This document shows, piece after piece, positions 3,455 to 29,100 of a stretch of DNA of 64,000 nt. This DNA comes from Coriobacteriia bacterium (GTDB taxonomy: Bacteria > Actinomycetota > Coriobacteriia > Anaerosomatales > JAAXUF01). The position numbers were made by a program, and so were the translations under genes. The notes below the pieces were generated by a model, which was given only the letters and a program-made list of their open reading frames with translations, ran no database searches and was not told the DNA's origin. The stretch is taken from the NCBI GenBank assembly GCA_013336165.1, contig JAAXUF010000007.1, positions 1 through 64,000 on the forward strand, written 5' to 3'. Every line of letters begins with the position of its first letter. The stretch's first letter is position 1.

Positions 3455-4897
3455 CTACGCATCTGCCTGCAGGGTCTCCATATGAGTTCTCTCGATCTCA
3501 TCGAGGAGTTCCTGCTGCGAATTGATGCCCATCTTCCGGTAGATATGCGCCGTGTGGGTCCGCACCGTGCTTTCGGATAGGAAGAGGTCACGAGCAAGAT
3601 ACGGCGCAGTTCTCCCCTTTGCCAAGAGAAGCAGGATCTCGTTCTCTCGCGTGGTGAGTGCATAGCGTTTGCCGACGATCTTGCAGGAGGATTCGAAGCC
3701 GTATTCCGGCTTTGCCGAAAGGGCTTCATCCGTATCACGGTAGCTTCTTGCGAGCGACATGATACTCAGGACAACGAGGAGCACGAATGCCAAGATGACG
3801 ACAACGGTCCCGATCCAAGCGTGGTATTGCCAAGGGAAGGAGCGGGTGAAGGCGAGCCCAATCGCCCATCCCATCTTGTGCGCAAGAAAACCAGCGGCCA
3901 AGACGTAGACTACCTTGGTTCTAGCGTAGATGAGCGGAGCAATCCAAATTGAGAAGAGGATCAATCCCCAAGCCAGATCGAACAGGAGAAGCGAGATCGA
4001 GACGACCGGACCCCTGAACACTGTGCCAAGATAGAGGGCACCAAGCGTGATAGGCAAGACAATCGTCTGACAGAGGAAGAAGAGCGATCGTATCCTCAAG
4101 TACTTCTGCGCAACGACGAGGCAAGCAGCGGCGAGAATCAGGCCCAGGCCTGAGAAGACCTGTATCAAGACGGAGGCGGCACCACCATCTTGCTGGCTCT
4201 GCCATTGGGCATACGCACCCATGAGCACTAGGCTTATGAGGAAGATCCTCCAAATGCTTTGCCTGAGGCGGTGGGGCTCCTTCGCGTCCTTCGCCTCTTC
4301 ACGGAGCCATGGCCTGACACCTGCGACGAACATACGGTCGCGCTCGGTGGGATCCTCCGCCCTGTTCGCCATGGAGAAGTACAGCGTCACTGCGGAAGCA
4401 AGGCAGAAGGCGGAGACCAGCCATCTGGCAACCGCGACGTTGAGGAAGATCAGGAAGATCTGCATGGAGCCTGCGACGAAGATTCCGTAAACGAACGAGT
4501 TCACGATCTTCTGTCTATCGAAGGAATAGTGGTATTGCGCAATCACCAGAAGCAGGAAGACGGAGATCTCCATTCCAAGAAAAGAGATGAACACCAGATG
4601 CTCGGGAATGGCGACTCCAGAACTTCGGAGCGTGTGGAGGATCATTCCCGCAGTCTGGAGAAGCGCCAACATGATGATCGTCATCTTGTGGCGATACAGG
4701 ACGACATCTCGCTTCTTTGAGAGAAACATGACGCCAGCGTAGACAAAGAGGTAGAGAATCCCGATAGCGACCACCAGAAAGATCGGTTTCTCGTCGAAGT
4801 GCCACAGGCCGGTGTAGCGGACGGACTCCTTCGCCGAGAGGCACAGGCCGAAGCTGACCCAAGCGAGCGCCCACGCTATGTTGCCCTGCCTCTCCAT
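3455..4897 (-). CDS. Membrane-bound LuxR-family transcriptional regulator
   Basis: About 480 residues. The first 400 form roughly a dozen hydrophobic segments. The C-terminal 60 (about 408-467, TTRENEILLLLAKGRTAPYLARD then STVRTHTAHIYRKM) are a LuxR/GerE helix-turn-helix. This layout (MFS-like sensor plus LuxR output) is abundant in Coriobacteriia such as Eggerthella, where these genes sit beside Tat flavoproteins or molybdoenzymes that they are thought to control. The ATG at 4897 is preferred over 4942 because GGGAG lies 8 bp ahead of it. The gene is divergent from the flavoprotein gene at 5218, its likely target. The ligand is unknown. Confidence 0.9.
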   Translation of the reverse strand: MERQGNIAWALAWVSFGLCLSAKESVRYTGLWHFDEKPIFLVVAIGILYLFVYAGVMFLSKKRDVVLYRHKMTIIMLALLQTAGMILHTLRSSGVAIPEHLVFISFLGMEISVFLLLVIAQYHYSFDRQKIVNSFVYGIFVAGSMQIFLIFLNVAVARWLVSAFCLASAVTLYFSMANRAEDPTERDRMFVAGVRPWLREEAKDAKEPHRLRQSIWRIFLISLVLMGAYAQWQSQQDGGAASVLIQVFSGLGLILAAACLVVAQKYLRIRSLFFLCQTIVLPITLGALYLGTVFRGPVVSISLLLFDLAWGLILFSIWIAPLIYARTKVVYVLAAGFLAHKMGWAIGLAFTRSFPWQYHAWIGTVVVILAFVLLVVLSIMSLARSYRDTDEALSAKPEYGFESSCKIVGKRYALTTRENEILLLLAKGRTAPYLARDLFLSESTVRTHTAHIYRKMGINSQQELLDEIERTHMETLQADA

Positions 4898-5217
4898 GTA
4901 CGTGTCTCCCAGCCTCCTCAGTAGCACACCAGCAGGAATCATACCTGCATGCCTGCTGCGATGTCAGTGTCAGCAGACTTTGGCGACACGAAGGACGCGA
5001 GCCGATTCTGGTTCATGCTGGCGAATCCGTTCCTCTCCCTAGGATATCCCCGGCTGGTTCCAACACTTCAGCAGAAATCATAGCCGTGGGACTAGCTTGA
5101 CTCTCCCGAAAAGGCAGCATCGTATCCACAGGATGAGGCCGGTTTTCCCAGTTCCTCGTATGGTCGGCTTGTTCGCGATGTCGTCCAGCGAGTGGGTCAT
5201 GAGGAGGATAAGGAATC
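4898..5217. promoter_or_regulatory. Divergent intergenic control region between the LuxR and flavoprotein genes
   Basis: These 320 bp hold no convincing gene. They must contain the promoters of the leftward regulator and the rightward flavoprotein, and probably the operator of the regulator. An AGGAGGATAAGG ribosome site is visible at about 5201-5212 ahead of the flavoprotein. I found no clear palindrome or strong -35/-10 pair. Confidence 0.45.
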
Positions 5218-6858
5218 ATGTTGGAGAACAAGGAAGCAAGTGGAACGGGCCTCTCCAGAAGGAGCTTTCTGGCAGGTGCAGGGTTGCTGGCGGTCTCGGT
5301 CGCAGGCGCCGGCATCGCCGGTTGCTCGGCGAAGCCAGAGGGGGCACAGGTTGCCCATGCTGGCACTTCGGCCAAGAAGAGAGCCGATCGTACGGTAGAA
5401 ACCGACGTCTTGGTCGTCGGTCTTGGCGCATCCGGGCTCTTAGCCGCATACGGAGCCGCCGCAAAGGGCGCGAAGGTCATCGCCATCGACACTGCCGAGA
5501 ACATGTCAGGAACAACCAACGTAAGAACTTCCGGCGCTTGGGCCGTGGGATCGGAGCTTCAGAAGAAGGATCCGAGGCCGTTTGGCATACGGGATGCGAT
5601 GAACCACGTCAACGAGAAGACCAACTACGTGGCCAACCAAAAGGCGATGCGAGCGATCCTCGGCGCGGGAGGAAGAGCGATTGATGCTCTGAGTTCCGCT
5701 GGCATGAAGTGGCGCATGGAATACGAGGCGGGGCTTTTCGGCGATCCTGCCACTGCTGAACTTACCGTGCGAGGCATCCATTGGTACGGATTCAAGGGTG
5801 ATGAGAGAGCGGCGGTCTTCCAGAAACTCGCGGACATGGCAGGCGTCGAGTGCATGTTCAGCACAACTGCCGAAAGCGCTCTGCTTGAGGACGGAAAGCT
5901 GGTCGGTGTCCGGTGCTCATCCAAGCGAGAGACCGTTGACATCTTGGCGAAAGCGACCGTGATGGCCGCAGGCGGGTTCCTGTCCAACCCCGAGATGGTT
6001 GCCGAGTACTTTGCCGGTGGGGATATCGTCAATATGGGGAGCCAAAACAGCACTGGTGCCGGTATTAGGTTGGCCATCGAGGCAGGTGCGCAAACCGGGA
6101 TGAACTTCAGCGTTTCAGGTGGGGAGTATGGTGGAGCGAACAAACAGGCCACGCCCACGTTTGCCTTCCGCCCGAACACCGGAACCAACGACGCGATGCG
6201 CCTTCCCGTCTTCGGCGGGTTGCTTGTCGACGCAGAAGGCCGCCGTTTCATCGACGAAGGCTTCGCCAACGAGCGCGCAATGTTCGCGGGAGAGTCACTG
6301 ATCCGCGAGAGGTTCTACTACGCAGTGGCCGATCGGTCCTTCATCGAACGACTCGCAACCGAACCTGTCTCGAACTTCTATGGGGACGAGCGAATGAAGG
6401 GCATGTTTGCGGGGATCGTTCTCTCTGAGATCGAGAAGCATTTCGACGAAGCCATCAAACAAGGATGGGCTTTCAAGGCCGATACCATCGAGGCTCTGGC
6501 CGCCAAGTTCGGCCAGGATCCGACGAAGTTCGCCGAGACGATCGCCCAGTACAACGAGTATTGCGCCAAGGGTGAGGACAAGTTCTTCTTCAAGGACAAG
6601 AAGTTCTTGCAGCCGCTCAGCAGAGCGCCGTATTACATTGTCCAATCACAGGCATCTGGATGGGTCTCGCTCGGCGGAATCAAGACCAACGCGTCTCTCC
6701 AGGCGCTCGGCTCTGACGGGCAGCCGGTACCTTCGCTCTTCGTCGCCGGTGCCGATGCGGATATCTTCACTACACCCCTCTACCTGACCGCCTCGGAGAA
6801 CGGGTTCTCGCTTGCAAGTGGCTTAGTCGCGGGGGAGGCAGCCGCCGATAGCGTCTAG
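5218..6858 (+). CDS. Tat-exported FAD-binding flavoprotein (fumarate reductase/KsdD-like), probable lipoprotein
   Basis: A 546-residue oxidoreductase. The N-terminus carries a twin-arginine motif SRRSFLAG (13-20), a hydrophobic stretch and a lipobox-like IAGC with Cys36, so it is probably a Tat-exported lipoprotein on the outer face of the membrane. The FAD-binding Rossmann motif GLGASG lies at 68-73, and the C-terminus ends in the FAD-contacting ASENGFSLASGLVAGEAAA. The FAD_binding_2 family includes fumarate, urocanate and other enoate reductases used as respiratory terminal reductases, and 3-ketosteroid dehydrogenases. No cytochrome or FMN domain is fused, so electrons must come from a separate carrier. 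The gene is divergent from the membrane LuxR regulator. The substrate cannot be assigned. Confidence 0.88.
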   Translation: MLENKEASGTGLSRRSFLAGAGLLAVSVAGAGIAGCSAKPEGAQVAHAGTSAKKRADRTVETDVLVVGLGASGLLAAYGAAAKGAKVIAIDTAENMSGTTNVRTSGAWAVGSELQKKDPRPFGIRDAMNHVNEKTNYVANQKAMRAILGAGGRAIDALSSAGMKWRMEYEAGLFGDPATAELTVRGIHWYGFKGDERAAVFQKLADMAGVECMFSTTAESALLEDGKLVGVRCSSKRETVDILAKATVMAAGGFLSNPEMVAEYFAGGDIVNMGSQNSTGAGIRLAIEAGAQTGMNFSVSGGEYGGANKQATPTFAFRPNTGTNDAMRLPVFGGLLVDAEGRRFIDEGFANERAMFAGESLIRERFYYAVADRSFIERLATEPVSNFYGDERMKGMFAGIVLSEIEKHFDEAIKQGWAFKADTIEALAAKFGQDPTKFAETIAQYNEYCAKGEDKFFFKDKKFLQPLSRAPYYIVQSQASGWVSLGGIKTNASLQALGSDGQPVPSLFVAGADADIFTTPLYLTASENGFSLASGLVAGEAAADSV

Positions 6859-9160: not shown

Positions 9161-9839
9161 GAGCGCCGGGCACCCCAGATGCCAAACTCGATCCCGGTAC
9201 TCATCGAACATCGGATCGTCGCCTGGGCACTCGGCAATCCCGGGCAGGGACCGGCTAGGATCTCTTCAGAACTGGCCCGCGAGAAGAACGGAGGCTTCGG
9301 AGTCTCCGCCAACGGCGCCTACCGCATGCTCCGTCGTCACGGCCTCCACGCGCGGGCCTTGCGAAACGGCCTTCTCGCCGGCTACGCGGCACTTCCCGAG
9401 CCGATGCGCGACTGAAGAATCCGAGCGTCACATCGAGGGCGACCATTCCGGTGAGATCGTACAGTTCGACTGCCTCTGTGTGGACGTCTCTCCGGTACGA
9501 AGGGCGTCGTGCGGCAGTATGCGGCGATCGATGCCGAGATCGCACGACTCAGAGCGACGCACACCCTGATCCGTCCGGGTCGTCCGCAATTCAACGGCTT
9601 CGTCGAGCGGTTGCAGCGCACCATCCTCGAGGAGTGCTGGAAACCGGCGTTCGCACGCTATCTGGTCCGAAGTACATGGGTCTCCAGCGCGAACTGGAGC
9701 GCTACCTTCAGGTCTACAACTACGACCGGGCGCACAACGGACGCCCGGCAAAAAGGTCAGACGCCCGTACAAGTGCTCGGTGCCGCTAAGATCTGGAGGT
9801 GGCAGACAAGATGTGTCGGCACATCTCCGAATCAGTACA
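9161..9839 (+). pseudogene. Decayed IS481-family transposase
   Basis: The start encodes the N-terminal helix-turn-helix region (MPNSIPVLIEHRIVAWALG, then ISSELAREK and YRMLRRHGLHARAL). A frame change near 9414 continues with HIEGDHSGEIVQFDCLCV, carrying the first catalytic Asp. A large internal deletion removes the TTDNGSEF part. The sequence resumes with the last block, PGRPQFNGFVERLQRTILEE, holding the catalytic Glu, and after another frameshift ends ERYLQVYNYDRAHNGRPA then GQTPVQVLGAAKIW. At least three lesions make it inactive. The last ~103 bp (9737-9839) recur at 15898-15997 and probably are the right end of the element. Confidence 0.8.
9737..9839 (+). repeat. IS481 right-end direct repeat, copy 1
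   Basis: This 103-bp stretch, running from ACGGACGCCCGGCA to CCGAATCAGTACA, is nearly identical to 15898-15997 in the same orientation. The copies differ by about three substitutions and a 3-bp indel. The sequence covers the last codons of the transposase and a 3' end finishing in ACA, as expected of IS481 ends. Confidence 0.9.
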
Positions 9840-10207
9840 GACCAGTCTCCTCGGCGCCTTGCTGATGCCGCGACATCCTTTCAACGAACGAATCATGCCT
9901 GAGGCATTAGGGCCGTCTCGCGTGGACTACTCCCTTTCGAAATACCCCTCTGAAGAGAATCACGCCTCGCTGCCGATGCGAAACAGACCTGCTGTTCGAA
10001 AGAATGGCGGTGGCTTGGCAGCATGACGGAATTCTCGAAGGTCCTCATCTCCTGCTAGGGGCCGTGTCTGTGTCTTGGAAGGAGAGGTGAATCCATATTC
10101 CTACGATGCAGCCAGCGAAGGAAATCCGAAGGGCGGCGTGTGGAGAGTAGCTATCGGTTGTGCACGTGTACGCATGGGTATGAGGTTCCATCTAAGGAGG
10201 GCTTTGT
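9840..10207. other. Gene-free stretch upstream of the MFS transporter gene
   Basis: These 368 bp contain no frame that looks like a protein. They should include the promoter of the MFS-molybdoenzyme cassette. The only clear signal is the TAAGGAGGG ribosome site at about 10192-10200. No further structure was recognised. Confidence 0.5.
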
Positions 10208-11434
10208 ATGGAAGAAGTGTTTCCCGCCAGACAAACGCGAAGTCTGCGACTCACTGTCCCTGGTTACGCTTGGGTACTTCTTGCTGTCGTGTTCTTGGCC
10301 GGGGTTACCGCACCGGCTAACATGTCCAAGGTCATGGTACTTGCTCCTGTATTGATGCAGGAGTTCGGTATCGGCGTGTCCCAAGTCGGTTACTTGATCG
10401 CCGGGTTCTATCTCCTCGGGTTTGTCTTGGCATTTCCAGCCGCTGCGATTGCCAATCGTTGGGGAGTCAAGGTCACGATTCTTGCTGCGGTGGGGGTGGG
10501 GGTTGTCGGCTCCCTGCTCGGCGCGCTGTCAACCGGCCTAGGTTTGCTTCTGGTCAGCCGCGTCCTAGAAGGTGCCGGTTTTGCCATGATGGGCGTAGCG
10601 GGTCCTTCGGCCATTTCCCCTTGGTTCCCAAAGGAAAGGCGTGGGACGGCCCTGGGGATTTGGGGTGCTTGGGCTGCAACGGCGATGGTCATCTGCCCGA
10701 CTCTCTGGGCGTGGATCTACTCGGTTGCCGCATGGCGAACCGTTTGGTGGGCTACCTTCGCCTTTGACCTACTCGTATTCATTCTCGTCATGCTCTTCGT
10801 CAAACAGCCGGATTTCTATTATGAAGGCGAAGAGGAGGCACACCTTGAGCAGAAGACCAAGATCTCTGACGTCTTCAAGGTCAGATCCGTTGTGTTGCTC
10901 GGACTGATATTCTTGTTCGGCGAACTCGCATTCATGAGCATGAACGGCTTTCTTGTTACCTACCTCAATACCCAAGTCGGACTGCCCTTGAGTCTGGCTT
11001 CGCTGATGATGAGCGTCTGTGCCCTAGTCGGCGTCATTGGCTCAGTCTTGGCGGGAATGATCTCCGACAAGCTCAAGACTCGCAAGTGGGTTCTCATGTT
11101 TGCCATTGTCACAGGTATCGTCTTCTCCGCAGCCATCTTCAGCACTCACAACGTCACGGCACTCTGGATATGGATCATCATCGGTGGAGTCGCCGGTGCA
11201 GGTGTGCCGGCCGTGCTATGGGCTGCCGTTCCAGGTCTCGTAAGGCCCTCCCAAGTGGCAAACGCTGTGGCGGTCAATGCGTTCTCTCAGAACGTAGGGA
11301 TGTTCATTGGGGCGACCGCAATCGGAACCGTCATCGCCTCCCTTGGCTGGAGTGCCGCAGGATACTTCATATTGGCGCCGTGCTATGTCATTTGCGCGAT
11401 CCTCCTGCTCTTTACCGGGAAGCAACTGCGCTAA
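10208..11434 (+). CDS. Major facilitator superfamily transporter
   Basis: A 408-residue integral membrane protein with about 12 hydrophobic segments split by a charged loop near residues 205-225 (KQPDFYYEGEEEAHLEQKTK). Conserved features include the segment GIWGAWAATAMVICPTLWAW and the loop AGMISDKLKTRK, the MFS motif-A pattern (G-x3-D-x2-x-R-K/R) repeated in the second half. The ATG at 10208 follows a strong AAGGAGGG site. The gene precedes the molybdopterin oxidoreductase by 195 bp on the same strand. In gut Coriobacteriia, MFS genes beside such enzymes are thought to import the aromatic substrate, so uptake of the enzyme's substrate is the best inference. Confidence 0.88.
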   Translation: MEEVFPARQTRSLRLTVPGYAWVLLAVVFLAGVTAPANMSKVMVLAPVLMQEFGIGVSQVGYLIAGFYLLGFVLAFPAAAIANRWGVKVTILAAVGVGVVGSLLGALSTGLGLLLVSRVLEGAGFAMMGVAGPSAISPWFPKERRGTALGIWGAWAATAMVICPTLWAWIYSVAAWRTVWWATFAFDLLVFILVMLFVKQPDFYYEGEEEAHLEQKTKISDVFKVRSVVLLGLIFLFGELAFMSMNGFLVTYLNTQVGLPLSLASLMMSVCALVGVIGSVLAGMISDKLKTRKWVLMFAIVTGIVFSAAIFSTHNVTALWIWIIIGGVAGAGVPAVLWAAVPGLVRPSQVANAVAVNAFSQNVGMFIGATAIGTVIASLGWSAAGYFILAPCYVICAILLLFTGKQLR

Positions 11435-11629
11435 ATGCCGTTGAGCTTCGTGCATGGAGCCAAACGCAGGAGGCTTGCCGGCAATCATGCGGTCTTGTGT
11501 GTCGCGGGCGAGACTCGATAGGGATTAGCCAATACGGGATCGATAAGGTCCGGCCAGAGTCTGGATAGAAGGCCAGACGCGCTGGAATCGCATAGCGACT
11601 ATCGAAGAAGAGCAAAAGGAGCTGGCCAA

Positions 11630-13945
11630 ATGGAATTTAAGAACGACATCGGAAAGCCATGGCGCTTTGAAGAGGGAGACTACACGGTCACTAGGTCGTC
11701 GGTATGGTCTCCCCCTGGGTGTCACCCGACCAGCTGTGGTGTGAAGTTCTACGTCAACAGCGACGGTATCCTCAAGAAAGTGGAAGGGGACGAGAACAAT
11801 CCTATAACAAACGGTCGTCTCTGCCCGCGCTGCTTGGCTCTGAAGGATTACATCTACAATCCGTCACGTGTCATCAATCCAATGAAACGCGACCCAGAAG
11901 ATCGCGGCAAGGATAAATGGGAACGCATTTCTTGGGACGAAGCTTACGATCTCATTGCTGAGAAGACCGCCTATTTCAAGGAGAAGTATGGCCCGGAGAG
12001 CATAGTCGCTTTTTCCGGTACCGGTCGTGACGGCGGCATCATGATTCAGAGTTATGCGCATCGTATGCTCGGCACGCCAAATGGTTGTTACACACAATCA
12101 GGCTATGCCTGCTACATCCCGCGCGTAGCGGGGACCTCCTACGTGCTCGGCGCCGCATACCCGGAGATGGACTACGCTGGCGGCCTGCCCGGGCGGTACG
12201 ATGATCCTGCCTTCCAACTCCCCGAAGTCATCGTGGTTTGGGGTAAAGAGCCACTACCTTCTAACGGCGACGGGTTGTTCGGACATGCAGTAATCGACAT
12301 GATGCGACGCGGAAGCAAGCTCATATCCATCGACCCGCGTCTCAATTGGCTGTCCACAAGGGCTTCCCTGCGTCTACCTCTGCGCCCCGGCACGGACGCC
12401 GCTCTGGCTATGGCGATGCTGAACATCATCATCACAGAAGGTCTCTATGACCACGATTTCGTCGACAAGTGGTGCTACGGCTTCGACGAGTTCACCGAGC
12501 GCGTGAAAACCATGTCTCCTGAGAAAGCGGCAGAAATCTGTAACCTCGATGTTGACGACATCTACGCGGTCGCTCGCATGTACGCGAAGGCGAAGCCAGC
12601 ACAGATTGCTTGGGGCCTTGCCGTCGACCAGAACCCCAATGGCGTCCAGGTGGGGCACGGAATTCTCGCCCTTATGGCCATCACAGGGAATCTCGATCGT
12701 CCGGGCGGGCAGATTCTCGGCACCCCCTTCACTGAGGAGGCGACTCTTCCCCAGGTCGGCTGGAACGCGATGAGTGAGGAACTCCAATCCAAGATACTCG
12801 GCCTAAAGGAGTATCCGGCATATGTGAGTCTGATTCTCAACGCCCATGCGGATCTCATGCTTGAGACCCTTGAAACCGACAAGCCCTACCCGATAAAGAT
12901 GGGCTACATCTCGTCAACCAACATCCTCGCTCCGACAAATTCGGCGCAGCCCAAGCGTTGGCATGATGCGCTCCTGCGGCTGGAGTGGACATTCGCTACC
13001 GATTGCTTCATCACTCCGACCATTCAGGCTGCAGCGGATCTCTTCCTGCCGTTATCAACGGTTGCCGAGCATGATGGTGTCACTTTCACCCATTACGACC
13101 AGACTCCCATCACGGTCGGCGCCATGTCCAAGGCGATCACTGTGGGCGAATGCAAGAGTGACCACGAAATCATCTTCGAGCTTGGCAAGAAGCTCATGCC
13201 AGAACTGTGGGACATGTACGCAGACATCGATGAGTTTATCAACGATGAGCGTCTCAGGGGCCATCCCGTGAACTTCGAGCAGCTGCGCAAAGAGGTCGTC
13301 CGTCAGAAACCTGTTGAGTACTACAAGTACCTGTCAGGGCACCAGCGAACAGACGGTCAGTTAGGCTTCCTCACGCCCACCGGTCGTGTTGAGCTCTACT
13401 CGACCATGTTCGAACAGTTCGGCGATGATCCACTGCCGTACTTCTCAGAGCCGCCCTATAGCCCTGTCTCTACGCCGGATACTTTCAAGGAGTATCCATT
13501 CATTCTGACTACTGGCGCTCGTACCTATGCGTTCTTCCACTCAGAGCATCGCCAGATCCCGCGTCTGCGCGAGCTCAATCCCAATCCGCTGCTCGAGATC
13601 AATCCGGCGGACGCCGACAAGCTCGGTATCACCGACGGACAGTGGGTTGAGATCGCCAATCAGTTCGGGAAAGCCAAGCTCAAGGCGAAAGTCTGTGAGA
13701 TCGTAAAACCCGGCGTCGTTCATGCCCAGCATGGTTGGTGGTTCCCTGAAGAAGACGCGGAGGAACCGAGCCTCTTTGGAGTCTGGAAAAGCAACATAAA
13801 CGAACTCGTGCCGCACAAGCACGTCGGCAGGATGGGCTTCGGAGCCCCCTACAAGTGCAACATCTGCAAGATCACTCCGCTCGCGGAGAATCTCGATTCG
13901 GACATGAGCTACATTTGGGATAAATTCGGAAAGCTGGTGATGTAA
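11630..13945 (+). CDS. Molybdopterin oxidoreductase of the acetylene hydratase/catechol dehydroxylase type
   Basis: A 771-residue catalytic subunit of the DMSO-reductase superfamily. The N-terminus has cysteines at 31, 36, 65 and 68 (GCHPTSCG and GRLCPRC), the region that binds a [4Fe-4S] cluster; the spacing differs from the usual CxxCxxxC. NGCYTQSGYACYIPR (about 151-165) lies where the metal-ligand residue is expected, so Cys153 or Cys161 could ligate Mo or W. The C-terminal part carries a cofactor-binding domain (ILTTGAR and HAQHGWWFPE). There is no Tat signal, so it is cytoplasmic, as are acetylene hydratase, pyrogallol transhydroxylase and some dehydroxylases. The start follows AGGAG. 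The ferredoxin gene abuts it, suggesting a two-subunit enzyme. The substrate is unknown; an aromatic or phenolic compound is plausible. Confidence 0.85.
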   Translation: MEFKNDIGKPWRFEEGDYTVTRSSVWSPPGCHPTSCGVKFYVNSDGILKKVEGDENNPITNGRLCPRCLALKDYIYNPSRVINPMKRDPEDRGKDKWERISWDEAYDLIAEKTAYFKEKYGPESIVAFSGTGRDGGIMIQSYAHRMLGTPNGCYTQSGYACYIPRVAGTSYVLGAAYPEMDYAGGLPGRYDDPAFQLPEVIVVWGKEPLPSNGDGLFGHAVIDMMRRGSKLISIDPRLNWLSTRASLRLPLRPGTDAALAMAMLNIIITEGLYDHDFVDKWCYGFDEFTERVKTMSPEKAAEICNLDVDDIYAVARMYAKAKPAQIAWGLAVDQNPNGVQVGHGILALMAITGNLDRPGGQILGTPFTEEATLPQVGWNAMSEELQSKILGLKEYPAYVSLILNAHADLMLETLETDKPYPIKMGYISSTNILAPTNSAQPKRWHDALLRLEWTFATDCFITPTIQAAADLFLPLSTVAEHDGVTFTHYDQTPITVGAMSKAITVGECKSDHEIIFELGKKLMPELWDMYADIDEFINDERLRGHPVNFEQLRKEVVRQKPVEYYKYLSGHQRTDGQLGFLTPTGRVELYSTMFEQFGDDPLPYFSEPPYSPVSTPDTFKEYPFILTTGARTYAFFHSEHRQIPRLRELNPNPLLEINPADADKLGITDGQWVEIANQFGKAKLKAKVCEIVKPGVVHAQHGWWFPEEDAEEPSLFGVWKSNINELVPHKHVGRMGFGAPYKCNICKITPLAENLDSDMSYIWDKFGKLVM

Positions 13946-14281
13946 GTGACGCGCAATGGTCTCTTGATTGACTACGAGTTCTGTACCGGTTGCCAGTCTT
14001 GTGAGGTTGCCTGCAAGGAAGAGCACGATTTCCCAGTAGGGAAATGGGGCATTAGGGTCTATGACGAGGGCCCGTGGCAGGTTGACGAGAAGACATGGAA
14101 CTGGAACAAGATTCCTGTTCCCACAACCCTCTGCGATCTCTGTGAAGACCGTGTAGCGGAGGGCAAGAAGCCGACGTGCGTCCATCATTGTCTTGCCGCT
14201 GTTATGAAGTTTGGTCCGCTCGACGAACTTGTTGAAGATCTCGACGCGAAGCCACGCCAAGTTCTGTTTGTACCTCGGTAG
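13946..14281 (+). CDS. Ferredoxin-like electron-transfer subunit with two [4Fe-4S] sites
   Basis: A 111-residue protein of the DmsB/NrfC type, shortened. Cluster one: Cys13, 16, 19 and 23 (CTGCQSCEVAC). Cluster two: Cys63, 66, 78 and 82 (CDLC and CVHHC). Longer DmsB-type subunits carry four clusters, so this is a minimal small subunit like those of transhydroxylase and dehydroxylase-type enzymes. Its GTG start directly follows the TAA stop of the molybdoenzyme gene, implying translational coupling and 1:1 production. It should pass electrons between the catalytic subunit and a cellular donor. A perfect 17-bp hairpin begins 6 nt after its stop. Confidence 0.9.
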   Translation: MTRNGLLIDYEFCTGCQSCEVACKEEHDFPVGKWGIRVYDEGPWQVDEKTWNWNKIPVPTTLCDLCEDRVAEGKKPTCVHHCLAAVMKFGPLDELVEDLDAKPRQVLFVPR

Positions 14282-14286
14282 TTGTG

Positions 14287-14324
14287 CTGCTGCCTTGCCG
14301 AGCACTAGCTCGGCAAGGCAGCAG
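14287..14324 (+). terminator. Perfect 17-bp hairpin after the ferredoxin gene
   Basis: CTGCTGCCTTGCCGAGC (14287-14303) pairs without mismatch with 14308-14324 around an ACTA loop. No U-run follows (TTCGTC), so it may be a weak terminator, an attenuator that lowers FKBP expression, or a 3'-end stabiliser of the oxidoreductase mRNA. Confidence 0.7.
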
Positions 14325-14379
14325 TTCGTCAAGCTTGTTGGGCCAAGTCCGAAACTGGCGTTGGATTGGAAATGGAGCC

Positions 14380-14808
14380 ATGCAAGAACGAATGCGTTTC
14401 TGGATCAACTACAAGGGGATGTTTCCAGACGGTACCGTCTTCGATGATAACGAAGACGGAGAACCACTTGAGGTTCTTATAGGAGCACGTCATTCTGTGA
14501 TGGAGCCGCTCGAAAACACCGTTCGTCAGATGAATATCGGAGAGGAGCGCATCGTAGAGATTCCGTGTGAACTGGCATACGGCAAGTATGATCGCGATGG
14601 TGTAAAGAGAATCCAGAAGTACTTGGTGCCAAATGCGGACAGACTTGAAGCCGGGATGAGTATTCAGTGGACCAGCACCAACAGTATTGAACCGATCCAT
14701 GTCAGGGTTGTTCATGTTGATGATTTCGTGGTTGAACTCGATTTCAACCATCCACTCGCTGGGAAAGATTTGGTCTATTGGGTGAAAGTGGTCGATATTC
14801 TTGATTGA
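14380..14808 (+). CDS. FKBP-type peptidyl-prolyl isomerase-like protein
   Basis: About 142 residues with an FKBP fold pattern. The N-terminal strand has the 'G.x.DG..FDD' motif (KGMFPDGTVFDD), then PLEVLIGARHSVMEPLENTV and MNIGEERIVEIPCELAYGKYD, matching the 'G......E.AL.GM..GE.......AYG' core of SlyD-like enzymes. The C-terminal half resembles the part of the domain that carries ELDFNHPLAGKDL, a near-invariant SlyD/FkpA signature. Such isomerases act as folding helpers in the cytoplasm. The gene sits behind the ferredoxin gene and no TorD/DmsD-type chaperone is present, so it may assist enzyme maturation. The ATG at 14380 is chosen; 14392 is possible. Confidence 0.85.
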   Translation: MQERMRFWINYKGMFPDGTVFDDNEDGEPLEVLIGARHSVMEPLENTVRQMNIGEERIVEIPCELAYGKYDRDGVKRIQKYLVPNADRLEAGMSIQWTSTNSIEPIHVRVVHVDDFVVELDFNHPLAGKDLVYWVKVVDILD

Positions 14809-14949
14809 TTATCCGCTCTATATTTGCGAGGAGAGTAAGCGCACGTATTTTGGGCCAACAGTCGTGAAGACGGAAGCCAAATGCCCCGCATATGGTGTTC
14901 TACGAGGTGGGAGAGAAGACCTGCAAGGCATGCGGGACTGAACTCACGG
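14809..14949. other. Short debris with a zinc-ribbon-like fragment
   Basis: Between the FKBP gene and the IS3 relic, 14892-14946 encodes MVFYEVGEKTCKACGTELTG, a single knuckle-like CKAC segment with no continuation. It looks like the fused end of a lost zinc-ribbon gene and not a functional product. Confidence 0.35.
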
Positions 14950-15830
14950 GAAACAGCCGCAGTCGAGCATCTCGTTCACTAGGCCCGCGATCGGGCTCGT
15001 GCCCGCGGTCCGGCTCACCACAATTCCGTCGAAACAGTCGATCACCGGCGAAAGATGGACCGTCCCTGCGGAAATCCGGAACTCAGTGAGGTCGGTGAGC
15101 CATTTGAGGTTTGGCGCGCCGGCATGGAAATCCCGCTTCAGAAGGTTGTGGGGGGCCGGACTTGTCTCGCCTCTGTAGGAGATGTAGCCGCGCCTTCTCT
15201 TGACCGGGACGATCATTCCTTGGACATGATGCGCCTCACGACCTTCTCGGAGATCTTCAGACCTTCGCGTCCAAGCAGTGAATGCATGCGGCGGAAGCCG
15301 TAGCAGCAGCCGTTCCCGTCGAAGAGCCTCGCGATCAGACAGCTCACCTCGGCGTATTTGTCCTCGCGGCGCAGCGCGAGGCGGCAATAGAAGTAGCTGC
15401 TCTTCAAGATGCCTAGGCATGCTCGGGGCTCGATGAGTCTACAGGCCGGCCTCAGGGCGTCGATCAGAAGAGTCTTCTCCATGTTCGCCAGAGATTACCC
15501 GGATCGGCGCCCGGATCTTCTCATACTATCTTGTGACCGTGCCTTAGAGAATGTAGCGTTCCATCTGGCGGCGGATCTGCTCCCTAAACGATTCGACTTT
15601 CGACTCCAAGGCATCCTTGCCATCAGGAAGGTCGGCGTTTCCGCGTGTTGCGTCCATGCGGGACAGGCCCCCTCTCCAAGCAGTGCGTTTCTCCACTTGT
15701 AGAGCACCGCTCTGGTCACCCCGACGGCAGTGGCGACTTCCCTGGCACTCTCCTGTCTGAAGCAGAGCGCCATCACGGTCTCTTACTTCTCCTCTGGGGA
15801 GAAGCGTACTCGGCCGCGGCGCCGGATCAA
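14950..15830 (-). pseudogene. Decayed IS3-family insertion sequence (orfA and truncated orfB)
   Basis: On the minus strand the right part encodes an OrfA-like helix-turn-helix (FRQESAREVATAVGVTRAVLYKW), interrupted by a stop just ahead of it. Next comes an OrfB start (CRLIEPRACLGILKSSYFY, then YGFRRMHSLLGREG), a frameshift near the RRIMSKE segment, and the integrase core beginning PNLKWLTDLTEF and VIDCFDGIVVS. It stops after NEMLD at about 14955, before the last catalytic Glu, so orfB is truncated and the IS is inactive. The element lies opposite to the preceding cassette and marks its right end. Confidence 0.8.
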
Positions 15831-15897
15831 CGTGTTTGGCGCGGTCTCGTCAATCCACTTTGCGAGTGTGTCAACGCCCGGATACCAGAATTCCCTG

Positions 15898-15997
15898 ACG
15901 GGCGCCCGGCAAAAAGGTCAGACGCCCGTACAAGTGCTCGTTGCCGCTAAGATTTGGTGGCAGACAAGATGTGTCGGCACATCTCCGAATCAGTACA
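15898..15997 (+). repeat. IS481 right-end direct repeat, copy 2
   Basis: This 100-bp stretch is nearly identical to 9737-9839 and has the same orientation, starting at ACGGGCGCCCGGCA and ending at CCGAATCAGTACA. The upstream sequence is the IS3 relic and not an IS481 transposase, so only the 3' end of this second IS481 copy survives. Confidence 0.9.
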
Positions 15998-16335
15998 CCC
16001 TAGACTCGAGCTGCTACTTCGCGGTCGAGTCGATGCTCTTGCGCTCTTGGGCATGGCGCGCGGTAAGGTCTCGACAATCTCAAGATCGCGTCCGGGAGAT
16101 ACCCGAGGGACCTGACCGCTTCGAGCACAAACCCCCTCATGGCGCCTCTGTCGCGCACGACGTCAGTAGTGACCGGCGACCCGTCCCGAGGCAATGAGCC
16201 ATAGAAGGCGGATACCAGCGAAGGGACCCCAATTCTAAACCGGTATTGGCTCGATCAACGCTCTTCGACGGTAATATCGTGAATCACAGAGATAGTGCAA
16301 TGTGTGCACACTTCGCACACCAAGTATTACTGACA
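15998..16335. other. Gene-free stretch between the IS481 end and the second LuxR gene
   Basis: These 338 bp contain no supportable coding region. The GC content falls visibly from about 16240 onward, where the AT-rich LuxR segment begins. The short frames here match no family I recognise. Confidence 0.5.
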
Positions 16336-17817
16336 TTACGAATCAACAGCTTCTATGATGTCAAGAAGTTGCTGACGAGAACTCAAGTTCATCTTCTGAT
16401 AGATATGATAGATGTGTGTCTTAACGGTATGATACGACAGGTGAAGACTCTGACTGATATATTCAGCATTACGCCCCTTGGCCAAGAAATACAGAATCTC
16501 ACTCTCTCTCGGAGAAAGACCATAGCGGTTTGCAGCAGTCTCACATCCCTGTTTCCACTTCCCTGACTCATGTTTGTTCCATTTCTTGGAATCTTCAACA
16601 CAGGAATCATCGATTGTATAAGCTTTATCAGGCAATCTAGGTTGAGTTGTTATGACAATCGCCAAGGCGACGACGATGAGAAGAGAAGACGCTGACATGA
16701 GCTCGGCGTCGGGCGTCCCGCTTCTGAAGACAAGCGCACCAAGAAGCCACCCAAGACTCTGTCCCAGGGTCATCGGAATTCGTCCATGCCCGAAGAAGGA
16801 ATATGGAGAGAGCGAGAAATGGTTAGTGAGTTTCGTCAGGGTATTCCAGTTCGAAATATCAAAGGCATATACTAATACGATGACAAGAAACAACAAAGAC
16901 AGACAGACTAGTGTGCTATATGAATTGGGATATATAATGTTAAGAGAAGTTACTAGAATTCCAGAGATCACAAACGGGAATGCCATTCTTAGCAGAGTCT
17001 CAGGATAGATAGACACTGAGTGTATTCGACGTTCCACGATAATAATAAGCGCTGAAAAAATAGATGCAGTAGCTACAGAGATAGTGAAACCAAATCTATG
17101 AGATACGAGAAACCCCGATAGTAAACAACAGACAAATCCAAGAGTAATACCACTTACCGCAATCGGAATATCTTGTGGCCATAGAGGAATCTGTTTGGTA
17201 AGTGCTGGACTCTCGGTGAAATCAGATTGGCGAAAGCCGCTGGTAGTGAGGAATAGCGCCCCTAGGGAGAAGAAAGGCATAAGCATGATGACGACGAAGT
17301 TGACGGGAGGAGCCATCGCGGCCGTTCCAACAATGGCGAATGCCGAGGCGATAACAGCAAGCGGCACGATTTCTTCAAGGAACCTCGACTTTGTTCGACC
17401 GAAATAGCGTGCCCAAGAGAGCGTCGCATAAGCAAATGAGATCCCAAAGAAGGCCCAGCTCATGATTTCTAGGGATAGGGGAACCTCTGTCCCGACACTG
17501 GTTGCGAAAGCGGCTATCGGAAGAGCCATCTGGGGAACAAGTGCCATTGCGGCCACAGATGGCGAGGTGAGCTTCCGGGAGAAGCTATCACCGCATAGCG
17601 TTGCAAGAAACAGAACAAGGGCTGCACAGCCAAAAGCAACAGCTCGCGCGAACAAGCCGACGTACATTTCGCCGATACTGCCCCGCATAGAGAGCGAGCC
17701 GTAGACACACGAGGCGCCCCACGCGACGAAGAGGGCGAACCCTAGCACTCCGGACAACGTCGGGGTGTCGAACTCATCTCGGGGGCTTCCTTCTGAGAGA
17801 ACGATGTCTACCGCCAC
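16336..17817 (-). CDS. Second membrane-bound LuxR-family regulator, AT-rich
   Basis: A 493-residue protein with about ten to twelve hydrophobic segments and a C-terminal LuxR helix-turn-helix (about 432-493: SPRESEILYFLAKGRNAEYIS, then HTVKTHIYHIYQKMNLSSRQQLL). It has the same architecture as the regulator at 3455-4897 but is only distantly similar outside the DNA-binding end. The GTG start at 17817 has AAAGGAGG 5 bp ahead. The 3' two-thirds of the gene (about 16240-17160) is much more AT-rich than its neighbours and uses A/T-ending codons, suggesting recent transfer. It points toward the molybdoenzyme cassette, which it may regulate. Confidence 0.9.
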   Translation of the reverse strand: MAVDIVLSEGSPRDEFDTPTLSGVLGFALFVAWGASCVYGSLSMRGSIGEMYVGLFARAVAFGCAALVLFLATLCGDSFSRKLTSPSVAAMALVPQMALPIAAFATSVGTEVPLSLEIMSWAFFGISFAYATLSWARYFGRTKSRFLEEIVPLAVIASAFAIVGTAAMAPPVNFVVIMLMPFFSLGALFLTTSGFRQSDFTESPALTKQIPLWPQDIPIAVSGITLGFVCCLLSGFLVSHRFGFTISVATASIFSALIIIVERRIHSVSIYPETLLRMAFPFVISGILVTSLNIIYPNSYSTLVCLSLLFLVIVLVYAFDISNWNTLTKLTNHFSLSPYSFFGHGRIPMTLGQSLGWLLGALVFRSGTPDAELMSASSLLIVVALAIVITTQPRLPDKAYTIDDSCVEDSKKWNKHESGKWKQGCETAANRYGLSPRESEILYFLAKGRNAEYISQSLHLSYHTVKTHIYHIYQKMNLSSRQQLLDIIEAVDS

Positions 17818-20166: not shown

Positions 20167-23100
20167 TCACCCACCCAGCAGCGTCACCACGACTTCGTGC
20201 TTCGCGCCGTCATCGGGCAGCGGGATCGAGTGACCGTCGAGCGCGACGCCGTCGAGTGTGACCCGCGCGACGCCGCCGTTCACGCCGCGAGGGTTCTCGA
20301 CCCGGATATGGTAGGTCGCCGAGCCGTGCCGATAGTCGATCTCGTACTCGCGCCAGCGCTTGGGGATGCAGGGGTCCATGCGCAAGACGCGCGCGCCGTT
20401 CTCGGCGAGGAGACGGAAGCCGAGCAAATCGTGCAAGACGACGCGGTGGAACCACGACGCCGAGCCGGTGTACCAGGTCCATCCGCCGCGGCCCACATGG
20501 GGGTTGGCGGCGTAGACGTCGGCGGCGACAACGTAGGGTTCGACGGCGTAGCGGTCGGCGTCGGCGCGGGTGGAGGAGTGGCGGATGGGGTTGATGAGGT
20601 CGAGGAGCCCCCAGGCTTCGTCGCCGTCGCCGCGCATGAGGTGCGCGAGCACGACCCAGAGCGCAGCGTGCGTGTACTGGCCGCCGTTCTCGCGGACGCC
20701 GGGGACGTAGCCCTTGATGTAGCCGGGATCCTGCACCATACGATCGAACGGCGGAGTGAGCAGCGCGATCAGACCGTCTTCCCGTCGGACGAGCTTCTCT
20801 TCGACGGAGTTCAGGGCGATGGCCGCGCGGTCGGGATCGGCGGCGCCGGAGATGGTCGCCCACGCTTGCGCGATCGCGTCGATGCGGCACTCCTCAGCCG
20901 TGTGGGTGCCGAGGGGGGTGCCGTCGTCGAAGTACGCACGGCGGTACCAGGCGCCGTCCCACGCGGCGGCCTCGGCGGCGGCGGCGAGGCGGGCGGCCCA
21001 GGCGCGGTAGTCGGCCGCGCGCTCGGGTTCGCCGCGCTGCGCGCAGATGGGGGCAAAGCGGGTGAGCACGTAGTTGAGGAACCACGCCATCCACACGCTC
21101 TCGCCCTTGCCCTCATGGCCGACGCGGTTCATCCCGTCGTTCCAGTCGCCGCCGCCGATGAGCGGGAGGTCGTGGACGCCTGTTGGCCGGCCGGCTTCCA
21201 GTGCCAAGACGCAGTGCTCGTAGACGGTCGCGGCGCGCTGCGAGGTCGCCGGTTGCAGGTAGGCGTCCTCGGCCTCGGGCGCGAGCGGTGGGCCTTCGAT
21301 GAAGGCGGTACGCTCGCCGAGCACGGAGGTGTCGCCGGTTGCCTCGAGGTACTCGGCGAGTACGAGCGGCAGCCAGTGGCGGTCGTCGGAGATGTGGGTG
21401 CGCACGCCCCGGCCCGAGTAGGGCTGCCACCAATGGAGGACGTCGCCCTCGGCGAACTGGTGGCGCGAGGCCTCGATGATCTGCTGGCGCACGAGGTCGG
21501 GACGCACGTCGAGCAGCGCAAGCGAGTCCTGCAGCTGGTCGCGGAAGCCGAATGCGCCGCTGGACTGGTACGCCGCGGTGCGCCCCCAGAGGCGGCAGGC
21601 GGTGGTCTGGTAGAGCAGACGGCCGTTCGCGAGGAGGTCGAGGCGCTCGTCCGGCGTCCTCACACGCACGGTGCCGAGCAGGTCGTCCCAGAAGCTCGCG
21701 CACTCGGCGAGGGCGTTCTCGACGGTCGCCGGCTTGCGATACCGCGCGATCAGCTCGCGCGACTCCTCGAGGGTCTGCGTCTGGCCGAGCAGGAAGCTCA
21801 CCTCGGCGGTCTCACCGGGTGCTAGGTCGATGGTGGTCATCAGAGCGCCGCAGTTGTCGAGGTAGCGTCCCGACAGTTCGCCGAGACGCGTCCGCCCCAT
21901 GGCAGCCGGGTCACACGGACGTCGGTTGCGGCCGACGAACTCGGTGCGGCTCGCTGTCCAGGAGTGCAGCGGCCGGTCACTCGCGAGGAATGCGCAACGT
22001 CCGGGAAAGTCGAGGTTGAGGTGGTTGTGCGCGGTGAGGAACTGGTTCTCGGCGTCGAACCACGTGACGACATGCTGCTGCGCACGGCTGCGCGAGTCGC
22101 CGAGAACCCACTCGACGAACTGCGTGACCGAGAGCTTGCGCGAGCGCCCGGTCGCGTTGGTGAGACGCAGGCGGCAGACTCGTACCGGGTCACTCGGCGG
22201 CAGGAACCACTCGAGCTCGTGGGCGATGCCGTGAGTTTCGTGCTCGAAGCGCGTGCGGCCGAAGCCGTGACGGATCACGTAGGGTTCGGGTGTGCGGACG
22301 GGGAGCGGTGTGGGGCTCCAGAACTCGCCGGTCTCCTCGTCGCGGATGTAGATCGCTTCGCCACTGCCGTCGGAGACGGAGTCGTTGTTCCAGGTGGTGA
22401 TGCGGTTCTCGTGACTGTTGAGCGCCCAGGTACAACCGACTCCGGCTTCCGAAACGGTGCAGCCGAACGTGGGCGAGGCGAGAACGTCGATCCACGGCGC
22501 AGGTGTGGTGTCAGAGCCGTCGAGGATGATGACGTAGTCGCCGGTTGCGGGATCGAATCCGCCGTAGCCGTTGTCGATGCTCAGCGCGGGGCGCCGGATG
22601 GGGGACGCGGCGTCTTGCGCGGGCGCTGACACAGGAGCGAGCGCAGGGGGGGCCTGCGGCCGCTTGCCCTGGCGGTTGAGCTGCATCTGGATGGTGCCCG
22701 CGTCGCCTTCAAGCGTGGCGCGCGCGACTGAGAGGAGGAGGTTGAAGACGTCGGGGTGCATCTGGTCGGCGCGGCGCAGGAAGACGCCGCCCGGCTTGTC
22801 CAACAACTGAAGAGCGTGGCCGGTGCGCACCAGCAGACGAAGCCGGTCGTCGAGATTGCTGGCGTACCCGGATGGCCGAGTGTTCAGGATCACGAGGTCG
22901 GTGATGAGCCCCTTGTGGCGCCAGTATTGGTGGGCGAGCAGCGCTTGTCGCACGAGCGGAGCGTGCTCGAGTTCCTCGACGCGTACGAGCAGGATGGGCA
23001 GGTCGCCTGAGACTCCGATTGACCACAGCCCCGACATCGGCAGGCCGTTCTCGATCGGCGTCTTGACCTTGAGCGGCGAGAACGGGTCCGTGAGCACCAA

Positions 23101-26100
23101 GCGGGAGGCCAGGCGCTCGAGCGTGGTCGCGTCCTGTGGCCGGATGCCGAGGTCGCGCAGTTCCAGCTGGGCGGCCGTCCACGCTAGGTCGATCGCGCGT
23201 TGTGCACTGCGGGCGTCGTGGTACTTCTCGGTCAGACGAAGGGCGGCTTCGCGGCTCTCGGCGACGCCGGTCACGAAGACGAGATGCACGCTTTCGTTGG
23301 GCGCCACCTCGATGCCGCGGCGCAGGGCGCAGCAGGGGTCGAGCACAGGTCCTTGAGCGCGGCCGAGCGGGCCTGAACGCGAGACGGCGACGGGATCGTC
23401 GGCTCCGCGCAGCCTGCCGAGAAACGCCGCGCGGTCGGTCTCGAAGGACGTATCGCACGGCGCCTGCTCGCACGCTATCGCGTGCAGCCCCCATACGCGC
23501 GTCTCAGCCGAGCTGCGCGGGCGGCGGGTGAAGAGCAGTGCCTCGGTCTGGGGGAGCCACTCGGTTTCCAAGAACAGGTTCGAGAACGACTTGTGCGCTT
23601 GGTCGGAACTCTGCGACGTCAGTGCGATCTCGAAGTACGAGGTCACCTCGAGGTGGCGCGTGACGTACCCGTTGTTGGCGATCGTGAGGCGACGCACCTC
23701 GACATCATCCTCGGGTGAGACCGCTATCTCCACGTGCGTCTCCAGGTCGCCGTCTCGGCGGCGAAACTCGGCTTTTTCGGGCGCAAAGACCACATGGTAG
23801 GCATCTGGCTGCTTGGGGCTCGGGTTATGCGGCGCCGAGAACACCTCGCCGCTTTCGGTGTCGCGTACATAGAAGAAGGTGCCCCAGCAGTCCCGGGTGA
23901 CGTCTTCGCGATGACGCGTCACGGCGAGCCCCTGCCATCGGGAGTACCCACCGCCGCCGTTGGTGACCATGACCGAATAGCGTCCGTTGGAGAGGAAGTG
24001 CGTTGTAGGAACGGGGGTATCGGCGGTTGTGTAGGAGCGGTTGATGGTCGGCGGTAGGGCGTGGATCGGGCGCAGGCTCTCAACCTCTTCGACGTGGGGC
24101 GCGACCGTCTGCGCGAGGCGTGGCACACGCTCCTGCAGGAGCAACTCCGCTGAGCAGACCAGCGGCTCGGAGTGGAACCGCTGGCGCATGCGCTCGCCTA
24201 CAACGGCGTTGCCCAGCGAGACGAACGCCATTCCCTGATGGTGCGCGAAGTACGCCTTGACCACCGCGCGGCTGGTGCCGGCGGGGATGCGGCCCGGCGT
24301 GTAGTCGAGCGCCTCGAAGTAGCCGAACCGCCCCTCGGCACCTTGCGCCGAGAACGTATGAAGGTTTTCGATCACGGCGTGCGGGTCGATGGTCAGCGCA
24401 AGCATCGAAGCGTACGGTGCGACGACAAGGTCGTCGGAAAGCCCGCGTTTCAGGCCGAGACCGGGAACGCCAAACGCTTGGTACTGGTACGTCTGTGAGG
24501 CGTCCTGCACATTGAACGCGGACTCTGAGACGCCCCACGGAACGCCGCGCGTCACGCCGTAGTCGATCTGCGCGCGCACCACGGTCGCGTACGTTTCTTC
24601 GAGGAGCGTGTCGGGCCAGTCGCGCATGACGAGCAGAGGCATCAGATACTCAAACATCGACGCACTCCACGACACGAGCGCCCGGCCTTCATGGATCTTG
24701 GTGAGCGTACGGCCGAGCCGGAACCAGTGTTCCTGCGGAACGTCGCCTTTCGCGATCGCGAGGAAGCTTGCTAGGCGGCATTCGCTCGCGAGCAGGTCGT
24801 AGTACGACGGGTCGAGGCGGCCTTCGCTCAGGTTGTAACCGATTGAGAAGAGCCTGCGATGCGGCTCGTACAGGATCGCGAAGTCGATATGTTCCCACAT
24901 CTCGCGCGCGATCTCCGAGTTGAGGCGCAGTCGGGCGAGCAGCTCGACGCACGCCGGGCGTGCCGAGCGGATCCCTGCGGCAACCGAGGCGGCCCAGGCG
25001 ATGACGGCCGCATCGTCCACGTCGTCGCCCGTGCCCCCGACGGTCGTAAGCCGGTCGAGCTCCGCAATTGCGGGGGCGAGGCCTTCCGCGAGACCGACGA
25101 GGCTGGGCACGTGGGCGAGCAGCGGCTGCAGTGCGGCGCTGCCACGTACGGCCGCCGGTGTCTCGGCGATGAGTGCGGCCCAAGGGGCGAGCGTTTCCAG
25201 CAGCGCGAGCAGCTCGCGGAGAGAACGCGCGGCATCAGACGCCGCCTCGGCGGCACCGGATGCGTCATCCGCGAGCGCGGCAAGGCGCCGCAGGAGCGCC
25301 GACCACTCGCCGAGGTTCGCGGGGCGCTCGGCGAGGTCGAGCGCGCGCAGCAAACCGTCGAGCGCCTCTCTCGCTGGTCGGCCGGAATGGCTTGCGTCGA
25401 ACTCGGCCTGGCTGGCGAGGAAGTCTTCGAGCGCGAGCAGTGCCGTGTCGCGTGCGCCGGCGAGCAGCTGCGGGCCGAGCAGTGCGGCCTCGGAGGCCTC
25501 CAGCAACGCGAGCCGCAGGACCAGCAGGTGCCCGGCGAGGTTGCCGGAGTCCACGGTCGAGACGTACGCTGGGCGCAGCGGTTCGAGCGTGGTGATGTCG
25601 TACCAGTTATAGAAGTGTCCGCGGAAGCGCTCCATGCCGGCCATCGTTGTGAGCGTCGCGGCGGTACGCTCGGTCAATCCTGCGACCGAGACGTAGCCCA
25701 GATCGTATGCCGTCACGTTCGCCAGCAGCTGCAAGCCGATATTGGTGGGCGACGTGCGCCAGGCGACCTCGCCTTTCGGTTCCTCTTGATAGTTGTCGGG
25801 CGCGAGGTGGTGACCCTGCTTCGTGACGAAGGTCTCGAAGAACCGCCATGTCTTACGGGCGATGCGGCGAAGCACGAGCCGCTCGTCCTCGGCAAGATCC
25901 GCGACAGGCTTGCGGGTGGGCACGGGAAGAGAGATCCACCACGCGACTGTCGGCCCCGCGAGCCAGAGCGCCGCCACAAAGACGCCGAACGCAACTCGCA
26001 GCGGTTCGCTGCCGAGAAACCCCTCGGCGAGCATGATCAGCGCGGCCAGACCTGCGGGCGGCCCGACGATGCGCCAGAACGCCGTGCGTGTGGTGCCGGC

Positions 26101-28920: not shown

Positions 28921-29100
28921 GCGGCTCCTATCCCGGGGGATACAGTGGTTCGAGGCGCCGCCCTGCCGATCGCGCTCGAAGACGGCTTCTACCATTATGC
29001 CCTTGTAGGGCGACTACCGACGGAGGCGCGGCAGAAGAAGCTCTGCAGAGTCCATCCTCTGGGGGCTGGGCGACTTCAGGAGGACGAAAGAACTCGTTGC

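Follow-up and report, generated by a model that had tools for sequence, protein, structure and literature searches.

The window, a 64,000-nt stretch from the genome of a Coriobacteriia bacterium (GCA_013336165.1, contig JAAXUF010000007.1, positions 1 to 64,000), carries a compact cassette in which genes for an MFS transporter, a molybdoenzyme, a two-cluster ferredoxin-like subunit (Fd) and an FKBP follow one another on the same strand (Table 1). This four-gene composition, with the MFS gene first and the FKBP gene last, had been proposed in a first-pass annotation, and all the open reading frames are indeed intact. Only the start of the last gene required revision. It had been set at a GTG at position 14284, which lies at the foot of a hairpin region. 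Because the homologues start level with the ATG at 14380, that codon is the correct start and the protein is 142 aa long.

Table 1. Genes and sequence features of the cassette and its immediate surroundings.
Feature	Positions	Strand	Description
MFS transporter	10208..11434	+	408 aa; PF07690, E 2.8e-54; 12 predicted TM (12 hydrophobic segments)
Molybdoenzyme catalytic subunit	11630..13945	+	771 aa; PF00384/PF01568/PF04879; Gordonibacter-type catechol dehydroxylase homologue, predicted cytoplasmic
Small electron-transfer subunit (Fd)	13946..14281	+	111 aa; PF12797/PF13247; two 4Fe-4S motifs
Perfect 17-bp hairpin between the Fd and FKBP genes	14287..14324	+	z -4.5; without a T tract
SlyD/SlpA-like FKBP with insert-in-flap region	14380..14808	+	142 aa; PF00254; proposed dedicated maturation chaperone
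IS transposase remnant, left direct repeat	9737..9849	+	rve_3 in an overlapping ORF
IS remnant, right direct repeat	15898..16007	+	92-94% identical to the left repeat
Membrane-bound LuxR-type regulator	16336..17817	-	PF00196; about 10 predicted TM and a C-terminal HTH

The transporter is 45-46% identical to the MFS protein encoded directly before the homologous molybdoenzyme gene in two Gordonibacter clusters (L011 and L015), and its probable role is to import the substrate, to export the product, or both. The small subunit had been described as having two clusters, in agreement with its eight cysteines, which sequence and profile searches arrange as two 4Fe-4S motifs. Its nearest matches in the PDB are beta subunits of FDH/Psr, and it is 81% identical to its counterpart in locus L177. 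The hairpin that follows it has no equivalent in the other homologous loci compared and may be an attenuator or a processing site. Because so strong a structure separates the Fd and FKBP genes, the two may not share a transcript in the window.

Profiles, sequence and fold all identify the catalytic subunit as a bis-MGD protein of the DMSO reductase family that lies nearer to acetylene hydratase than to other characterised enzymes. Acetylene hydratase is the best PDB match by sequence (E 6e-85) and also gives the best match to the predicted fold (pLDDT 89.8; TM 0.83/0.87). The close relatives of the enzyme (58-68% identity) come almost entirely from Coriobacteriia, including Gordonibacter, whose closest cluster is L011/L015 (65-66% identity). 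Two more catechol-dehydroxylase homologues are encoded in tandem elsewhere in the same genome (G000:C10:51969-59036, locus L091); they are 50% and 44% identical to the window enzyme and are not accompanied by an FKBP. Molybdoenzyme-Fd pairs, also with no FKBP, occur in Moorella and Peptococcaceae (L018, L019 and L021; 55-56% identity), suggesting that there may have been exchange with Bacillota.

With acetylene hydratase (2e7z) as the closest solved structure, the enzyme might be supposed to be a redox-neutral hydratase or a transhydroxylase of the kind that converts pyrogallol and phloroglucinol, and a hydratase had been among the activities first suggested. An alignment whose N-terminus was checked against 2e7z argues otherwise. 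The acetylene hydratase signature consists of a cluster bound by Cys9, Cys12, Cys16 and Cys46 together with the catalytic Asp13. In the window enzyme the first of these cysteines is missing, C31 and C36 take the places of Cys12 and Cys16, C65 takes that of Cys46, and an extra cysteine, Cys68, has been gained within an LCxRC motif. The position of the Mo ligand is conserved, being occupied by an invariant Cys161, but Asp13 is exchanged for His32. This histidine is invariant in 32 aligned relatives, and hydratase chemistry is therefore disfavoured. The window enzyme also differs from acetylene hydratase in having a partner Fd, and the presence of this electron-transfer subunit likewise counts against redox-neutral chemistry. 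Pyrogallol transhydroxylase ranks only 19th among the fold matches and is a weak sequence match. Both the hydratase and the transhydroxylase identities were accordingly dropped on the active-site residue and the fold ranking, and redox-neutral catalysis is considered very improbable.

A better precedent is found among the catechol dehydroxylases of Gordonibacter, which have no Tat signal, a small 4Fe-4S partner and adjoining MFS genes (PMC7028382; PMC12771579). Enzymes of this kind, known from gut bacteria, take hydroxyl groups off catechols of plant origin, and the reaction that defines the type is a Mo-dependent, reductive para-dehydroxylation. The window enzyme shares the layout. As had been reported at first pass, it lacks a Tat signal (residues 1-60 contain no RR motif, and hydrophobic segments are absent), and no TorD-type chaperone is encoded nearby. 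Family searches, on which all genome-wide statements here are based, place the sole PF02613 gene of the genome on another contig (C13:40722). Because the missing Tat signal, the small Fd and the MFS neighbour have all been described for Gordonibacter-type enzymes, most of what had appeared unusual about the locus is the published norm, and the novelty once attached to a Tat-less, two-cluster, MFS-linked arrangement and to its cysteine pattern does not stand. Dodh, Hcdh and (-)-Eddh/Cldh of Gordonibacter pamelaeae, which were compared by description only, likewise combine the absence of a Tat signal with a small 4Fe-4S protein and an MFS neighbour (PMC7028382). The Dadh, Hcdh and Cadh enzymes of E. 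lenta belong to the same wider family and reaction class, but they are exported by the Tat pathway and come with a membrane anchor, a TorD-like chaperone and extra ferredoxins, none of which is found at the cassette. The genes for 21-dehydroxylation (Elen_2451-2454) were considered as a parallel and set aside; FdhD and an SPFH protein are encoded among them, but an FKBP is not.

Characterised reference enzymes were placed by genomic context rather than by a listed sequence or accession. The Vadh enzyme of Gordonibacter sp. 28C (PMC11887054) was assigned in this way to a locus at about 80.8-88.4 kb of G061:C12 (molybdoenzyme gene C12:80760-83345), which comprises exactly a molybdoenzyme, an Fd, two SLC13/CitMHS transporters and a LysR regulator. 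With a first contig measuring 581 kb, the locus-tag number is consistent with this position. Like the cassette, the putative Vadh locus pairs a cytoplasmic molybdoenzyme subunit with a small Fd; it differs in having no FKBP, transporters of the SLC13/CitMHS type and a LysR-type regulator. At 49% identity, this context-assigned Vadh is the nearest characterised enzyme placed, and in the tree the group to which it belongs and the window's clade are sisters.

The eam cluster, whose Eadh1 and Eadh2 enzymes act in the conversion of ellagic acid to urolithins (PMC12771579), was assigned to G. pamelaeae 2405-2424 kb and to contig C16 of Gordonibacter sp. 28C, where two molybdoenzyme-Fd pairs are found with MFS genes, a LuxR gene and an amidohydrolase-2 gene. 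The L011/L015 cluster had been a candidate for this identity but was ruled out by the absence of the amidohydrolase-2 gene, whereas G. pamelaeae 2405-2424 kb fits. Eadh1 and Eadh2 resemble the window system in being Tat-less molybdoenzymes with an Fd, clustered with MFS transporters and a LuxR regulator. These proteins, identified through the amidohydrolase-2 gene between the two molybdoenzyme genes, have no FKBP found near them and share about 44% identity with the window enzyme. They lie well outside its FKBP-associated clade, although the window enzyme falls within the wider group that holds them, references being assigned by context only.

These placements also explain the cysteines at positions 31, 36, 65 and 68. 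Their presence had been correctly noted, but the pattern is not odd: since the first cysteine is likewise absent from the putative Vadh and Eadh proteins, and these too carry LCxRC, it is a family trait. Within the window's clade all 36 sequences that were typed have the spacing C-x4-C; outside it C-x3-C occurs in 76 sequences and C-x4-C in 17.

No characterised enzyme is known inside the window's clade, the references placed in the tree being the context-assigned Vadh and Eadh1/2. Isofunctional groups in an SSN have been drawn at a threshold of at least 72% identity (PMC11585353), and for the window enzyme the values available are 49% to the context-assigned Vadh and approximately 44% to the context-assigned Eadh1/2. 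On this evidence from sequence, the enzyme appears to be a new, divergent member of the Gordonibacter-type catechol dehydroxylases, and it would be the conserved FKBP partner that is new. Proteins of this fold and subunit composition might instead catalyse the reductive removal of some group that is not a catechol hydroxyl, or use an electron acceptor that is not a catechol. The family is very diverse, with 121 of 126 clusters of unknown function (PMC11585353), and no characterised enzyme could be placed in the window's clade. Against this stand the sister relationship of the clade to the putative Vadh group and the requirement for a catechol that is reported for the Eadh enzymes and, according to the same paper, for earlier characterised catechol dehydroxylases (PMC12771579). 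We regard a non-catechol reaction as unlikely. The substrate is probably a catechol, and it is possible that it is a new one for the family.

What sets the cassette apart is its last gene. In a tree of 176 homologues and acetylene hydratase, an FKBP gene lies directly downstream on the same strand in 19 of the 35 members that are informative in one clade with full support, compared with 1 of 127 outside it (Fisher p 3e-14). Because the sequences are related, a better measure is the number of changes of the FKBP label along the tree, which is 4 versus 19.1 expected in shuffles, with none of 500 shuffles as low. Within one subclade the FKBP is directly downstream in all 18 informative members. 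Among the near relatives of the window enzyme, it is directly downstream in the window and in L177, L182 and L183, and it is divergently placed upstream in L176, L178, L179 and L180. When flanks were extended, an FKBP was found in 11 of 12 near relatives; since these loci repeat some species already sampled, they offer support rather than a fully independent sample. The first-pass annotation had made its case depend on co-occurrence of the FKBP in homologous loci, and the FKBP does recur in the enzyme's clade.

The pairing extends to the number of genes. Two clade enzymes and two FKBPs are present per cluster in L001, L002, L176, L179, L180, the Gordonibacter locus L087 and L122/L123, whereas L181 has two clade enzymes and no FKBP was found there. 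All four clade enzymes of Gordonibacter sp. 28C have an FKBP directly behind them or within about 5 kb, compared with an FKBP directly behind none of the 26 other molybdoenzymes analysed in that strain, and G. pamelaeae has one at three of five clade enzymes. The association is not absolute. FKBPs are missing from clade members L005, L010, L058, L090:5325, L022 and L096, which means that this type of enzyme has no strict need of one. Separately, a molybdoenzyme of G. pamelaeae outside the clade (L101:7488-10474) has a SlyD-like FKBP of another type directly behind it, perhaps an independent recruitment. A long acidic loop is inserted after PGGQ in the enzymes of one subgroup of the clade (L005, L008, L010, L058 and L090:5325), near which no FKBP was found, and in these examples the loop and the FKBP appear to be mutually exclusive. 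The possibility that the long members without an FKBP gene carry an FKBP-like insertion was considered and dismissed, as only the extended acidic loop is present.

The predicted structure of the window FKBP (pLDDT 93.3) has the FKBP fold with an insert-in-flap domain, and its best Foldseek matches are FKBP12-IF(SlyD), SlyD and SlpA, with which it also shares the NHPLAG motif. SlyD is a cytoplasmic chaperone that acts on Tat signal peptides and in the maturation of Ni-hydrogenase (PMC11198818). The window protein differs from SlyD and SlpA in being bound to an operon, in belonging to a fast-diverging subfamily, and in ending after the last FKBP strand, so that it lacks the C-terminal His/Cys metal-binding tail of SlyD (a tail that is not universal in the family). 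The cassette FKBPs constitute a subfamily of 24 members that is separate from the other SlyD-like FKBPs of the same genomes (100/99). Across 23 pairs, FKBP and enzyme have co-diverged (Mantel r 0.77; 0 of 5000 permutations, the highest reaching 0.45), although part of this agreement could stem from the two genes being inherited together in one operon.

FKBPs are ubiquitous, and it might be argued that the enzyme is an ordinary catechol dehydroxylase whose operon carries a general prolyl isomerase, serving, for example, the transporter, the Fd or general stress, with no function of its own for the enzyme. Equivalents of the Tyr26, Phe36, Asp37 and Tyr82 pocket residues are retained in the window FKBP, which could therefore be an active PPIase, and some clade members manage without an FKBP. 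Yet two other FKBPs, one FKBP12-like and one SlyD-like, are already encoded elsewhere in the genome, and those of the cassettes make up a separate subfamily that tracks one enzyme clade, with one FKBP per clade enzyme in several clusters. Moreover, Phe36 is mostly lost and Asp37 often lost in the FKBPs paired with the 19-row enzyme subclade, which suggests that these proteins may serve in holding or binding rather than in catalysis. An incidental isomerase is an unlikely explanation, and a role tied to the enzyme is preferred.

Direct repeats of about 110 bp, which are IS remnants and of which the genome has only two copies, bracket the cassette (9737-16007). GC content is 52-58% inside, versus 62-70% from 18 kb on. 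The two genomes of the same family lack a match, and a homologue at E 1e-100 is present in only 1 of 60 relatives (41% identical). At E 1e-290 no other genome of the same order has a homologue, whereas other families of the class have one. The flanking IS remnants, the low GC content and the absence from almost all order-level relatives together indicate that the cassette was very probably acquired horizontally. An open frame of 2942 aa (20167-28995, minus strand) adjoins the island.

A LuxR gene lies just beyond the right repeat. Its product contains PF00196 and, in a simple scan, 10 hydrophobic segments, as in the 10-12-TM LuxR family. Catechol dehydroxylases are known to be controlled by members of this family (PMC9734109), and this gene is a candidate regulator of the cassette, though it is outside the IS repeats. 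Another membrane LuxR gene (3455-4942, minus strand) in the same low-GC island is divergent from a FAD_binding_2 flavoprotein gene (5218-6858, plus strand). The pair (3455-6858) has the appearance of a second, typical substrate-induced reductase module of Coriobacteriia.

The cassette, lying between degenerating IS fragments, could be a relic that is no longer expressed, and the remnants on both sides, the low GC content, the hairpin inside the operon and the separation of the LuxR gene from the cassette would all agree with this. Nevertheless, the four ORFs are full length, and the conserved cysteines, the histidine and the pocket residues are intact. We consider it quite unlikely that the cassette is a relic.

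A functional assignment of the cassette can then be offered, and we hold it to be reasonably probable: a reductive aryl dehydroxylase of the bis-MGD type, cytoplasmic and built of two subunits, served by MFS transport and by a SlyD-like FKBP that acts as an enzyme-specific maturation chaperone. The original proposal of a substrate-import and dehydroxylase module with its own folding factor is borne out to the extent that the enzyme belongs to the branch of catechol dehydroxylases and acetylene hydratase and that the FKBP co-occurs in homologous loci. The transporter would move an aromatic, catechol-containing substrate inward and may carry the product out. The Cys161-ligated Mo (or W) would receive electrons by way of the small subunit, with its pair of 4Fe-4S clusters, and of the cluster near the N-terminus (C31, C36, C65 and C68). 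One hydroxyl would be removed as water, the reaction serving as an electron sink. For Tat-exported relatives, proteins of the TorD/DmsD type hold the apo-enzyme until cofactor insertion. By analogy, in loci without TorD the FKBP may be the enzyme-specific maturation chaperone and would hold the apo-catalytic subunit, the Fd, or both until the cofactor is inserted.

A broader proposal, to which we give an even chance, is that a SlyD-type FKBP was taken on within one branch of the cytoplasmic catechol dehydroxylases as a maturation chaperone particular to each enzyme, one per enzyme, as an alternative to TorD/DmsD, and that the branch may mark a shared class of aromatic substrates. A search of the running text of papers in the open literature returned no publication that links an FKBP or peptidyl-prolyl isomerase with catechol dehydroxylases, and the partnership was not found described there.

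Gordonibacter strains possess more than 30 mostly uncharacterised dehydroxylases, which decide how dietary polyphenols are processed, and expression of these enzymes has been difficult. For Dadh of E. lenta, most accessory genes are reportedly indispensable. If the proposal is correct, the need for a dedicated FKBP would account for some of the difficulty of expression in one branch and would supply a practical co-expression rule for its enzymes. The presence of the FKBP would also set apart roughly one in eight of the Gordonibacter paralogues as a functional group of their own, and a molybdoenzyme chaperone would have been found with a fold not tied to that role in the papers located. The cassette is, in addition, an instance of catechol-type metabolism being carried by IS-flanked DNA into a different order of the class.
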